Virus record (IMG/VR): IMGVR_UViG_3300020467_000030
Location: 1-28,098 of that record
DNA: 28,098 bases
Source: a virus
Reading direction: 5' to 3' (one strand)
Below the pieces are notes generated by a model, which ran no database searches, had not been told where the DNA came from, and worked only from the letters and a program-made list of their open reading frames with translations. Positions 24,189 to 28,098 of the stretch are shown here, in pieces. How positions within the stretch are numbered: the first letter of the stretch is position 1; each line of letters begins with the position of its first letter. The translations under genes and the position numbers were made by a program.

Positions 24189-26309
24189 ATGGCTTCTCCA
24201 ATACTGAAGTTTAAAAGAGGTAATTTCTCTAATCTTCCTGGTTTACAAGCTGGTGAACCTGCTTTCACAGTAGATAAATTCGATCTATACGTTGGTATAG
24301 ACTCTACCACAAGTAATAATAAATTTATTGGTTCAAATCGTTTCTGGACACAGGAAACATCAACTGCAGGTTCAGGTGTGAACCTCGTTGAGGGATCTAA
24401 TAATGGTAGTAATCATATTACACTGAAAGCACCTGCTACGATAGGTAGTAATCAGACTTACGTCTTCCCTGCTTCTCCTGTTAGTGGTGGATTCCTAAGA
24501 TCTGATGGTAGTTCAGGTCTTTCATGGGATACAGGATCAGGATTCAATAATGGTTCTATACCTGCTTTAGCAATAGATATTGACGGAGCGACTGCAAGTA
24601 GCACTGTTACTGACTCTGACCTCTTCGTATTTGATGACGGAGCAAACGGAACAAATAGAAAGATAACTGCAACCAACATGAAGGATTACTTCCTTGGTGG
24701 TGGTGCAGGTGCTAACTTCAACTCTATTAATGTTTCTGGTGTCACCACAGGTGGTCAACTTGATGCTACAACTCTAAAAGTATCTGGTATATCTACATTT
24801 ACAGGTCAAGTATTTGCTGATGTACAAGGAGACTTTACAAGTACGAAACCAATAAGAAACCAAAGTGGTGGTGGATTGATTGCAGGTGTTGGTGCTATCA
24901 AAAACACTGGTTCTGCAGGTCTTGTTACTGCGTTTAAGTTTACTGGTGGTGGTATAGACAGTTACACAGTATCAGGTGGAGTGGCACACGTTGCTACAAC
25001 TGGTGTTGCTGCAACAACCTTCACAACATCACAGACCACAGTTGCAACTCAAGGACAGACAGCGTTTACAGTTACTGCAGGTTATACTGACGGATTCGTT
25101 GAAGTATATCAAAACGGTGTTCGTCTGATTACTGGAACTGACTACACAGAAACAGATGCAAACACGATTACTCTTGCATCAGGTGCAACAGTTGGTGATG
25201 AGATTGAGACAGTTGCATGGAAGTCATTAGGTGATGTTGTAAACATAAACTCGGTCAACGTTGTTGACAACTTAAAGGTAACTGGTGTAACCACGACGGG
25301 AGGAGTCACGCTGTCCAGTGGTGCATTTACTGGATCAGGTAGTGGTCTGACAGCTGGAACAGTTCCACTTTCATCACTTGATATTGACGGTGGTACAGCA
25401 ACCACAACACTTGCAGATGCAGATCTATTCATTGTTGATGATGGTGCAGGTGGTACAAATCGTAAGGTAACATTTGAAACACTCTCTGACGCTGTATTAG
25501 GTGGTGGTACAGGTGCAAACTTTGCTGCTGTAAACGTAACGGGTATCACGACAGTTGGTGGTGTAATCGACGGTAACGGTGGTGCAAATATCTCAGGTGG
25601 TGCAGGTTTAGTTGCATCAACTGCTAAAATATCCGACCTTACTGATAATCGTGTTGTTATCGCAGGTACTTCAGGTGAACTAGAAGACAGTGGTAATCTA
25701 ACGTTCAACGGTTCGACTCTTGCTGTTACTGGTAACATAACTGCTAATAATGGTGCAACAATCACTGGAGCAGAGACGACCTTATCATCAGCCACCGTCA
25801 GTGACCTAACAGATAATAGAGTTGTAATCGCAGGTGCATCAGGTGCTCTTGAAGATAGTAACAATCTACAATTTGATGGATCGACACTAGCAGTCGTAGG
25901 TAGTATCACTGCTTCTCAAAACGTTACGATTACTGGTAACCTTACTGTAAATGGTACAACCACTCAATTAAATACTACCAACTCCACCATTGAAGATACA
26001 CTCTTAGAACTACAAAAAGTAGATGGTGGTGCACTAAGTTCTGATACAGATAAAGACGTAGGTCTTGTACTGAACTACTACAGTGGATCTGCTAAGAAAG
26101 CAGCATTCTACTGGGATGATAGTGCTGCAAAATTCGTGGTATCAGCAGTTGCAACAGAAAGTGCTGGAGTTCTCACAAACTCAACTGCAGGTTCACTTGA
26201 AATGGGAGCATTGTTCATCAATGATTGTGCAGGTAATACACAAGTAATATCTTGTTCAGGAACAACTCGTTCTTTGGAAAATATAAGCGTAGACGGGGGT
26301 ACGTTCTAG
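24189..26309 (+). CDS. Tail-fibre-like protein with internal repeats (706 aa)
   Basis: The N-terminus, ILKFKRGNFSNLPGLQAGEP followed by AFTVDKFDLYVGID, is the attachment-type start seen in many phage fibre proteins, where 'L-x-x-G-E-x-A-x-x-x-x-x-x-x-L-Y-V-G' is the core. The body is Gly/Thr/Ser-rich and repetitive. A ~70-aa unit occurs at 122-189 and again at 390-460 (key residues D-I-D-G, D-L-F, D-D-G-A-x-G-T-N-R-K). A ~40-aa unit occurs at 481-519 and 537-575 (SDLTDNRVVIAG). A fibre motif FVEVYQNGVRLITGTDY lies at 303-319. Near the C-terminus are NLTVNGTTTQLNTTNSTIED (584-603) and FYWDDSAAKFVVSA (640-653), common in fibre proteins of marine T4-like phages. The protein ends in VDGGTF. It probably trimerises and contacts the host; no enzymatic domain or chaperone cleavage site was seen. 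Confidence 0.8.
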   Translation: MASPILKFKRGNFSNLPGLQAGEPAFTVDKFDLYVGIDSTTSNNKFIGSNRFWTQETSTAGSGVNLVEGSNNGSNHITLKAPATIGSNQTYVFPASPVSGGFLRSDGSSGLSWDTGSGFNNGSIPALAIDIDGATASSTVTDSDLFVFDDGANGTNRKITATNMKDYFLGGGAGANFNSINVSGVTTGGQLDATTLKVSGISTFTGQVFADVQGDFTSTKPIRNQSGGGLIAGVGAIKNTGSAGLVTAFKFTGGGIDSYTVSGGVAHVATTGVAATTFTTSQTTVATQGQTAFTVTAGYTDGFVEVYQNGVRLITGTDYTETDANTITLASGATVGDEIETVAWKSLGDVVNINSVNVVDNLKVTGVTTTGGVTLSSGAFTGSGSGLTAGTVPLSSLDIDGGTATTTLADADLFIVDDGAGGTNRKVTFETLSDAVLGGGTGANFAAVNVTGITTVGGVIDGNGGANISGGAGLVASTAKISDLTDNRVVIAGTSGELEDSGNLTFNGSTLAVTGNITANNGATITGAETTLSSATVSDLTDNRVVIAGASGALEDSNNLQFDGSTLAVVGSITASQNVTITGNLTVNGTTTQLNTTNSTIEDTLLELQKVDGGALSSDTDKDVGLVLNYYSGSAKKAAFYWDDSAAKFVVSAVATESAGVLTNSTAGSLEMGALFINDCAGNTQVISCSGTTRSLENISVDGGTF
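24552..25568 (+). repeat. Two ~70-codon repeats in the fibre gene
   Basis: The unit at 24552-24755 (residues 122-189) recurs at 25356-25568 (residues 390-460). Both run from a P-A/L-x-x-I/L-D-I-D-G start through D-L-F-x-x-D-D-G-A to L-G-G-G-x-G-A-N-F and V-x-G-x-T-T. The copies have diverged but keep the same order of motifs, so this is an old internal duplication. Confidence 0.75.
25629..25913 (+). repeat. Two ~39-codon repeats in the fibre gene
   Basis: SDLTDNRVVIAGTSGELEDS (residues 482-501) and SDLTDNRVVIAGASGALEDS (538-557) head two units that continue with N-L-x-F-x-G-S-T-L-A-V-x-G-x-I-T-A. The DNA copies are at about 25629-25745 and 25797-25913. They are close to identical in protein, so the duplication is recent or under concerted change. 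Confidence 0.8.
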
Positions 26310-26310
26310 G

Positions 26311-26317
26311 CTAAATA
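26311..26317 (+). promoter_or_regulatory. Putative late-promoter box before the coiled-coil gene
   Basis: CTAAATA begins two bases after the fibre stop codon and ends 20 bases before the ATG at 26338. Motif and spacing match the boxes before gp25 and the 112-aa gene. A TATAAT lies at 26327-26332 but has no recognisable -35 partner. Confidence 0.5.
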
Positions 26318-26337
26318 ACCCAGTTATATAATACATT

Positions 26338-26526
26338 ATGAATGAAGAGGTCAATGCTCTTCTTAGGGTTTATCAGCAGAAAGTTAGTCAACTCACCGCT
26401 ATGAATATTTCACTTGAAGCAAAACTTCAAGTGCTCAACGCTCAAATAGAAGCACTATCCTCCCCTCAAGAGGAATTTGAAGGTGCTTCAGTACCAAATA
26501 CTAAAAAATCAACTGCTAAGAAGTGA
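26338..26526 (+). CDS. Small coiled-coil protein (62 aa)
   Basis: No named family is recognised. The first ~45 residues form one amphipathic helix with heptad spacing of Leu, Val and Ile (EEVNALLRVYQQKVSQLTAM, then NISLEAKLQVLNAQIEAL), so a dimeric or trimeric coiled coil is likely. A short acidic linker (PQEEFEGA) leads to a basic tail (TKKSTAKK). The gene starts 28 bases after the fibre stop and has its own late-promoter-like box. A small trimeric coiled coil next to a fibre gene could be a fibre chaperone or a capping piece; that is inference. Its final codons form the left arm of a perfect 15-bp inverted repeat, and its TGA stop overlaps the GTG start of the next gene. Confidence 0.75.
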   Translation: MNEEVNALLRVYQQKVSQLTAMNISLEAKLQVLNAQIEALSSPQEEFEGASVPNTKKSTAKK

Positions 26527-26550
26527 TATCCGACGAGCAGTTGATTTTTT
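26503..26550 (+). terminator. Perfect 15-bp inverted repeat spanning a gene junction
   Basis: AAAAAATCAACTGCT (26503-26517) is the exact reverse complement of AGCAGTTGATTTTTT (26536-26550). The 18-base loop (26518-26535) holds the TGA stop of the coiled-coil gene and the GTG start of the P-loop gene. The A-run on the left and T-run on the right give the form of a bidirectional intrinsic terminator, but the loop is longer than usual for one. It may act as terminator, attenuator or translation-control hairpin. Confidence 0.6.
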
Positions 26551-27269
26551 ATGTCGCAGTGCCAGGTAGTGGATGGGCAAAACTATCTCTACTGCTAGGT
26601 TGTTGTGGCAAAATCAATCTCAATAATACAGATAGAAGAGAAGACAGACAAGAGACAGGAAAACAAGGGGTTGGGTGTGTTCACCATAAGGGAGCATTCT
26701 GGGATCCTATGATGGAATTTGGTGAGGGGTTTGATGATCTTGAAAAGAATCATACTAAAGAATCTTTCAAGGCAGAGTGCCTCAAACCATTTACTGAAAT
26801 CAATGATCAAAACTATCTTATTCGATCACACTTCTTTGCAGAAACAAAGAACCTGAATTGGTTGAAAAAGAATTTTCCTGATAATAAAATAATCTTCATA
26901 CTAAGAGATACTAGATTATGTTGGGAAGGTTGGACTACCAGCATGACATTTACTGGTCGATATCCATCATACAAAGCATGGATGAAGTACACATTTATTC
27001 GTGATCATCCTGAAAATTATGATAAGATGTGGGGAATGATAATTAAACATGATAAGATGATAAGAGAGTTTGTCAGAGATCATGAGTGTCTTATCATACA
27101 ACCCAACAAAACCTTCTTAGATCTTTTAGATTATAGATGGGATGAAGAAGGTAAAGAAGAGTTTGATAAGTTAATTATGGTGCATCAATTTTTCAAAAGT
27201 GATGTGCCAATGTATGATGCTCCATTTGTTTTTTATAATTGCAATGACATTTTCACAATTCAATCCTGA
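26523..27269 (+). CDS. P-loop/sulfotransferase-like protein, copy 1 (248 aa)
   Basis: The N-terminus is a beta strand leading into a P-loop-like turn, IFYVAVPGSGWAKL (residues 8-21). Near 123-140 lies IIFILRDTRLCWEGWTTS. Strand-PxSG-W at the start and strand-RD with a later Ser is the layout of the sulfotransferase fold (5' and 3' phosphate-binding segments). Key residues differ: the usual Lys of the first loop is Gly 15, and the Ser eight residues after the Arg is Gly 136. The site also does not fit a standard Walker A. Activity is therefore uncertain. Other marks are HHKGAFWDPMMEFGEGF (54-70), SHFF (102-105) and a final FYNCNDI. The start is GTG 26523; an in-frame TAA at 26517-26519 excludes a longer protein, and alignment with the paralogue requires residues 5-7. 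It overlaps the next gene by 26 bases. Confidence 0.65.
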   Translation: MISDEQLIFYVAVPGSGWAKLSLLLGCCGKINLNNTDRREDRQETGKQGVGCVHHKGAFWDPMMEFGEGFDDLEKNHTKESFKAECLKPFTEINDQNYLIRSHFFAETKNLNWLKKNFPDNKIIFILRDTRLCWEGWTTSMTFTGRYPSYKAWMKYTFIRDHPENYDKMWGMIIKHDKMIREFVRDHECLIIQPNKTFLDLLDYRWDEEGKEEFDKLIMVHQFFKSDVPMYDAPFVFYNCNDIFTIQS

Positions 27270-28026
27270 ACAATTAGTTTTTTTCATAGGAATACCTGGT
27301 TCTGGTTGGGCAAAAATTGATTCTTTATTGAGGTGTTGTAAGAATTTCAATTTCAGCACATCAGATTTTAATGATGAGAGGTGGGAGAAAGTACAAACAA
27401 AATATTATGTTGAACATAAAGGTCATTTTAGCGGACCTGGTTGTGAGTTTGGTGAGGGATTTCAAGACTTACCAAAATATCATACTAAAGAAAGTTTTAT
27501 TGAAGAAGCATTGAAACCTTATGCAGAGGTAAACAATGAGCAGAGTTATATGATCAAGTGCCACTTTTTCTGCGAAAAACAAAACTTAGAATGGTTAGAT
27601 AAAACATTTCCTAATAATAAAATGATCTTTGTATTCAGAGATAAAGATCTTTGTGATGACAGATGGTTGACTTCCATGACATTTGCAAAAAATTATCCTA
27701 AGTATACTGCATGGCAAGTTGTAGATGATCCTGATGAAGAGATTGGTAATCATGACCCTCGCAACGTAGAAAATTTTAAAAAGTATAATCAAAAACATAA
27801 TTTATCAATGAGACAATTTTTTAGAAAAGCAAAAAAACCAAATTTTATTACTTGTCCAACTAGACATTTCTTAGATAAAGTAGGGTTTGAATGGGATGCG
27901 AATGGTCAGAAAGAGTACGGTGCATACATTAGAAACTATTGCATAGGACCTAAATTGACATTAGCACCCAGTTGGGATACCTCAATTGGTTTCTACAATT
28001 GTCAAGATATTATTGACTTCGCATAA
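27244..28026 (+). CDS. P-loop/sulfotransferase-like protein, copy 2 (260 aa)
   Basis: This is a clear paralogue of the gene before it, with the same order of marks: FFIGIPGSGWAKI (residues 13-25), HKGHFSGPGCEFGEGFQDL (58-76), HTKESF (80-85), CHFF (106-109), MIFVFRDKDLCDDRWLTSMT (127-146) and FYNCQDI (250-256). As in copy 1, the first loop lacks the sulfotransferase Lys and the position eight after the Arg is not Ser (Arg 140), so a canonical PAPS-dependent enzyme is doubtful. The frame is open to 27199, but ATG 27244 is chosen because it gives an N-terminus that aligns with copy 1 and removes a Met/Cys-rich stretch inside the previous gene. The stop overlaps the next ATG (TAATG). Substrate and role are unknown; modification of phage or host surface would fit the location beside fibre genes. 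Confidence 0.65.
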   Translation: MTFSQFNPEQLVFFIGIPGSGWAKIDSLLRCCKNFNFSTSDFNDERWEKVQTKYYVEHKGHFSGPGCEFGEGFQDLPKYHTKESFIEEALKPYAEVNNEQSYMIKCHFFCEKQNLEWLDKTFPNNKMIFVFRDKDLCDDRWLTSMTFAKNYPKYTAWQVVDDPDEEIGNHDPRNVENFKKYNQKHNLSMRQFFRKAKKPNFITCPTRHFLDKVGFEWDANGQKEYGAYIRNYCIGPKLTLAPSWDTSIGFYNCQDIIDFA

Positions 28027-28098
28027 TGGAATCTTATTTTAATGGAATTTGGAAAGACCAAAATTTTGAATCTCTTAAGTATTCTGGCTATCAGTTGG
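28026..28098 (+). CDS. Start of an unidentified gene, cut by the window end
   Basis: ATG at 28026 overlaps the stop of the previous gene by one base (TAATG) and the frame stays open to the end. The 24 visible residues (MESYFNGIWKDQNFESLKYS and four more) do not match a family I know and show no P-loop start like that of the two genes before it. The one-base overlap, seen at several other junctions here, supports a real start. Confidence 0.5.
   Translation, partial: MESYFNGIWKDQNFESLKYSGYQL

Follow-up and report, generated by a model that had tools for sequence, protein, structure and literature searches.

Analysis of a 28-kb stretch of viral DNA (the whole 28,098 nucleotides that were studied, hereafter the window) revealed a long inverted repeat at the junction between a short coiled-coil gene and a downstream gene, P-loop gene 1. 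In the mRNA, this repeat would fold into a hairpin that is drawn from the coding sequence of both genes, encloses their overlapping stop and start codons, and has probably been maintained by selection. As the best mechanism, we propose that the hairpin gates the expression of P-loop gene 1 by the translation of the coiled-coil gene, a reading to which we give about an even chance of being right.

The window corresponds to an IMG/VR virus record, and its largest structural protein finds its best match in T4-like cyanophages. Since psbA is present on a closely related 122-kb contig (G001), the clade of the window is one of cyanophages, viruses of marine photosynthetic bacteria. The coiled-coil gene and both P-loop genes lie on the + strand. 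A tail-fiber-like gene (24189-26309) is followed by the coiled-coil gene (26338-26526), whose 62-aa product is phrog_26572-like, by P-loop gene 1 (26523-27269), by its paralogue P-loop gene 2 (27241-28026), and by another gene, which starts at 28026. Each gene from the coiled-coil one onward overlaps the next, the overlap between the two P-loop genes reaching 29 nt with a start of the second (ATG 27241) that was assigned by comparison with the first. Both P-loop proteins match Sulfotransfer_3 under the curated cut-off (PF13469, 20.4 bits for gene 1). The AlphaFold model is of moderate confidence (pLDDT 66) and the top matches in a fold search were tyrosylprotein sulfotransferases; because no match had an E-value <0.001, a sulfotransferase-like nature of the P-loop protein is to be taken as a lead only. 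Relatives of P-loop gene 1 are encoded at 18 IMG/VR loci and those of the coiled-coil gene at 45, the pair also occurring in one uncultured phage record (L001), and no relative was found in cellular genomes.

The P-loop pair resembles a cassette (26526-28026) with the coiled-coil gene on one side and a gene starting MESYFNGIWKD on the other, and it is missing from some of the relatives among the loci compared (L006, L017, L039, L040, L059, L061, L088, and L097). Other relatives have, besides the pair, a gene on the reverse strand (in L006 it codes 135 aa, MKIYLAGPIEICSEDE...), which we take to be nucleoside 2-deoxyribosyltransferase-like and whose start, where the gene is present, overlaps the P-loop start. 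Besides, in the distant relatives L001 (1933-2268) and L011 (2796-3011), the coiled-coil protein terminates in DAGTF or DAGSF, an end that resembles the DGGTF/DGGSF end of the neighboring tail-fiber-like protein.

The left arm TAAAAAATCAACTGCT (26502-26517) and the right arm AGCAGTTGATTTTTTA (26536-26551) of the repeat are exact reverse complements over 16 of 16 bp and lie 18 nt apart. An earlier note on this DNA had described a perfect 15-bp repeat; the exact complementarity and the 18-nt loop stand, and the length is corrected to 16 bp. As this note had recognized, both arms are coding. The left one codes (T)KKSTA, i.e., the KKSTA tail of the coiled-coil protein, and contains, from 26505, the 13-bp core that is kept in relatives, while the right one codes (E)QLIF(Y), with the EQLIF start of the P-loop protein, and includes a T6 tract (26545-26550). 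It had also rightly placed the stop codon TGA (26524-26526) and the start codon GTG (26523-26525) in the loop (26518-26535), with the correction that the two overlap there as GTGA at a -4 spacing; the same start is found in the aligned relatives. The RNA from 26498 to 26555 has a folding energy of -18.5 kcal/mol (z -5.15), a stability that none of 200 shuffled sequences reached. A known RNA family was ruled out for the hairpin, as Rfam covariance models run over 25500-28098 gave no match except a sub-threshold, chance-level one at 27032-27104.

Two smaller hairpins were observed within the coiled-coil open reading frame, one at 26344-26362 (GAAGAG-7-CTCTTC), in which the arms are conserved and the loop bases vary, and the other at 26411-26433 (CACTTGAAG-CAAAA-CTTCAAGTG). 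As a whole, this reading frame shows a mild excess of structure only (synonymous-shuffle z of -1.5 to -2.8). Further helices were predicted by RNAalifold over all 283 columns; their covariation term was unfavorable (+0.72), and hence they are not claimed.

The 16-bp repeat is the sole perfect inverted repeat of at least 11 bp (loops of 3-30 nt) in the window. Twenty order-1 Markov simulations matched to the window in length yielded 0.15 repeats of at least 11 bp and none of at least 13 bp, which, together with the folding z-score, rules out a chance origin. When both genes were resampled synonymously over about 24 codons on each side, a repeat of at least 13 bp was obtained in 3 of 3000 trials and one of 16 bp in none, so that a coding coincidence is ruled out as well. 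The protein sequences thus do not force the repeat.

The earlier note had proposed aligning this junction in related phages and looking for compensatory changes. In the alignment, the hairpin is kept in all four close relatives (L002-L005, on contigs G001-G004), which share 83-88% DNA identity with the window in P-loop gene 1. Because their left arm holds four A where the window has six, the common core is limited to 13 bp. With all pairs counted, 98.5% of the arm cells are paired, compared with 32-60% when one arm is slid. While the arms are conserved throughout, covariation comes down to one compensatory pair and one broken pair, both in L005 (left arm CCAGCTGCT, right arm AGCAGCTGA). In the former, an A-U pair has become G-C through a change on each side (Thr to Ala on the left, a synonymous Leu change on the right), and in the latter a U-A pair is lost. 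A single covarying pair among five sequences was reached by 101 of 500 column shuffles and is not significant, hence the covariation alone proves little. Moreover, the folding energy of L005 is not exceptional, 25 of 300 synonymous resamplings being as stable, and the five contigs that make up the clade sample are not fully independent. DNA pattern scans for further members of the clade returned only L002-L005, besides more distant or unrelated matches.

In the P-loop gene, 11 sequences share the same amino acid at 133 codons. At 62 of these the third base is kept in the clade, and the right-arm codons DEQLIFY form the longest third-base-invariant run of the P-loop gene in the clade, with seven codons compared with four in the next one. 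Of the 62 frozen codons, CAG in the right arm alone has a third base that differs from all six outgroups, and its change favors pairing. Within the codon usage of the window, the G-ending codons of this arm are in the minority (GAG 0.36, CAG 0.24, and TTG 0.17). Over 13 positions, the right arms of the outgroups match the left arm of the clade at 8-10, those of the clade itself at 12-13. Since initiation often constrains the opening codons of a gene, this argument is slightly weaker. The frozen third bases and the direction of change fit selection for pairing; they would also fit a single template switch followed by recent descent. The latter, without function, is the main null explanation: one arm would have been copied from the other during replication (quasipalindrome correction) and kept by descent with no regulatory role. 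Template switching is a documented source of RNA hairpins and its mechanism is described for them (PMC8794818), the 8-10 matches already present in the outgroups are a typical starting point for it, and the changes in the arms of the clade are clustered and directed to pairing. However, a template switch gives an origin and not seven third-base-invariant codons in a gene where only 62 of 133 comparable codons are so, and the paired change in L005 would be left unexplained unless the switch recurs. We regard this null as rather improbable, and selection for the hairpin in this one clade as probable.

The hairpin is not general to this gene pair. No comparable perfect stem was found in relatives where the same two genes are adjacent, among them L008, L009, L010, L011, L001, L042, L043, and L046. 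L041 has a weak, A/T-only stem in the same place, which is not exceptional (94 of 300 synonymous resamplings), and in L006, L039, L040, and their kin the coiled-coil gene is separated from the P-loop genes by the reverse-strand gene. The hairpin is thus not shared by the gene family as a whole, and the comparison of sequences indicates that it is specific to one clade of T4-like cyanophages. In other branches of the locus, a compact and GC-rich terminator is found in noncoding DNA, either just after the coiled-coil gene (L083, L090, L094, and L096) or just before it (L001, L010, L011, L081, and L088), and the clade of the window has neither.

A strong hairpin of terminator type (e.g., AGGGGAGCAATTAGCTCCCCTTTTTT) adjoins the coiled-coil ATG or shortly precedes it in L088 (2501 and the preceding 60 bases), and likewise in L081, L085, L090, L094, L096, L097, and L011/L095. 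In most of these loci, it is preceded by a late-promoter-like TAAATA, so that late transcription would begin within the terminator stem or next to it.

According to the mechanism that we favor, expression of P-loop gene 1, and of the overlapping genes that follow, would require the short coiled-coil gene to be translated. Without an incoming ribosome, the 13-16 bp would close over the GTG and exclude 30S subunits, whereas a ribosome ending the coiled-coil gene would melt the left arm, stop at the TGA and be able to restart at the overlapping GTG. Expression may be gated a second time at the T6 tract past the stem, through termination of transcription if the leading ribosome lags. We infer that the hairpin forms in infected cells and acts in this way. 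The anatomy is that of structure-gated coupling, namely a -4 stop/start overlap and a predicted structure over the start, one strand of which lies inside the upstream reading frame; with the GTG in the loop, the 30S footprint spans both arms. Among the structures at -4 overlaps in the two 120-kb relatives, none is more stable than this hairpin. Opening the region from -20 to +14 around the start would cost 14.5-18.6 kcal/mol in the clade, compared with 5.3-14.6 in the outgroups (5.3-5.4 for L008 and L010, 14.6 for L009); the value of L009 being as high as that of L005, this difference is to be read as a tendency. Since the -4 overlap also occurs, without the hairpin, in the outgroups L008 and L009, the overlap alone may couple the two genes. 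A further point against gating is that structure directly 3' of a stop codon can lower the efficiency of coupling, according to a study cited in a review of translational coupling (PMC12548453).

The same structure was read in the earlier note as a ribosome-suppressed intrinsic terminator. The A-tract/9-bp/T6 hairpin would stop transcription before the P-loop genes, and readthrough would be allowed by a ribosome that covers the left arm as it completes the coiled-coil gene. This interpretation is partly supported, in that the terminator-like anatomy and the conservation of the arms are borne out. The stem is followed by a U-tract (a 9-bp core and T6, scoring 9.0 in the window and 17.9 and 16.0 in relatives), and the T6 tract is conserved in all five sequences. 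In a d'Aubenton-type scan, the hairpin gives the top two scores of the window (10.2 on the minus strand, 9.0 on the plus strand), and it ranks 7th of 58 in G001 and 16th of 62 in G002. For a terminator located 5 bp past a stop codon, translation reduces the efficiency from ~90% to <10% (PMC4824070); from such data, a terminator so near the stop would be almost fully suppressed by the terminating ribosome. As the hairpin starts 22 nt upstream of the stop codon, within this suppression zone, termination, if any, would take place mainly when the coiled-coil gene is untranslated, as the note had proposed. Furthermore, Cyanobacteria natively have no Rho (PMC5100998), so that a hairpin would be the available route to polarity for this cyanophage clade and a plausible substitute for Rho polarity. 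On the other hand, the hairpin is neither short-looped nor GC-rich: its 18-nt loop is atypical, since the strong terminators of these genomes mostly have loops of 4-7 nt and GC-rich 7-bp stems, only 4 of the 9 core pairs are G-C, and it is absent from the hits of a plain pattern scan that allows loops of no more than 8. Every U of the T6 tract pairs with A in the window, other lineages of the locus place their compact GC-rich terminator outside the genes, and the distant relatives lack a comparable perfect stem. An initiation block at the GTG accounts for the hairpin equally well, and we consider transcription termination possible but unlikely as its main mode.

An unregulated variant appears very unlikely. 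Here, the hairpin would be a leaky terminator or mRNA 3'-end stabilizer at the end of the structural-gene transcript, past which a constant fraction would read through. It would stand in for the ordinary terminator that flanks the coiled-coil gene in other branches; however, both arms are translated and would be melted by ribosomes, and by the data of PMC4824070 most of the termination at a hairpin that starts 22 nt ahead of the stop codon would be lost. The initiation block and the ribosome-suppressed terminator are compatible and non-exclusive, and the sequence cannot separate them. That one doubly coding hairpin does both, terminating transcription and blocking initiation at the stop/start overlap, seems improbable; if true, it would provide Rho-independent polarity to a phage of Rho-less cyanobacteria and tie an accessory gene cassette to the translation of a small structural-module gene.

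Gating of P-loop gene 1 by the hairpin, if real, would be a compact control that requires no extra DNA, the same bases coding two proteins and carrying the switch, and a way for a cyanophage of a Rho-less host to tie downstream genes to upstream translation. L008 and L009, with the same overlap and no hairpin, offer a natural with/without comparison for the clade, which makes the idea directly testable. Its logic is known from genes VII/IX of phage f1, whose spacing is also -4, and from the MS2 coat/lysis genes (PMC12548453). In f1, for which an RNA unfolding model was proposed, a -4 overlap also coincides with a hairpin lying partly in the upstream gene, which is thought to block downstream initiation until a ribosome passes, as we propose here. 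Unlike in f1, the predicted hairpin of the window holds the start codon in its loop, has arms that are coding in two genes, and is followed by T6. In MS2, upstream translation likewise opens the structure around the downstream start, but the spacing is -50 and both the structure and the genes are different. Rho-independent terminators that lie near or within gene ends and are suppressed by ribosomes, such as tR2 (PMC4824070) and the pyrBI attenuator, share with the window a hairpin and a U-tract within reach of the ribosome at the stop codon; they differ from it in that the window has an 18-nt loop, a moderate GC content and a downstream gene starting in the loop, its termination being only predicted. 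Hence, the kind of control is already known, and, as far as we found, an instance formed wholly of coding sequence over a stop/start overlap is new.
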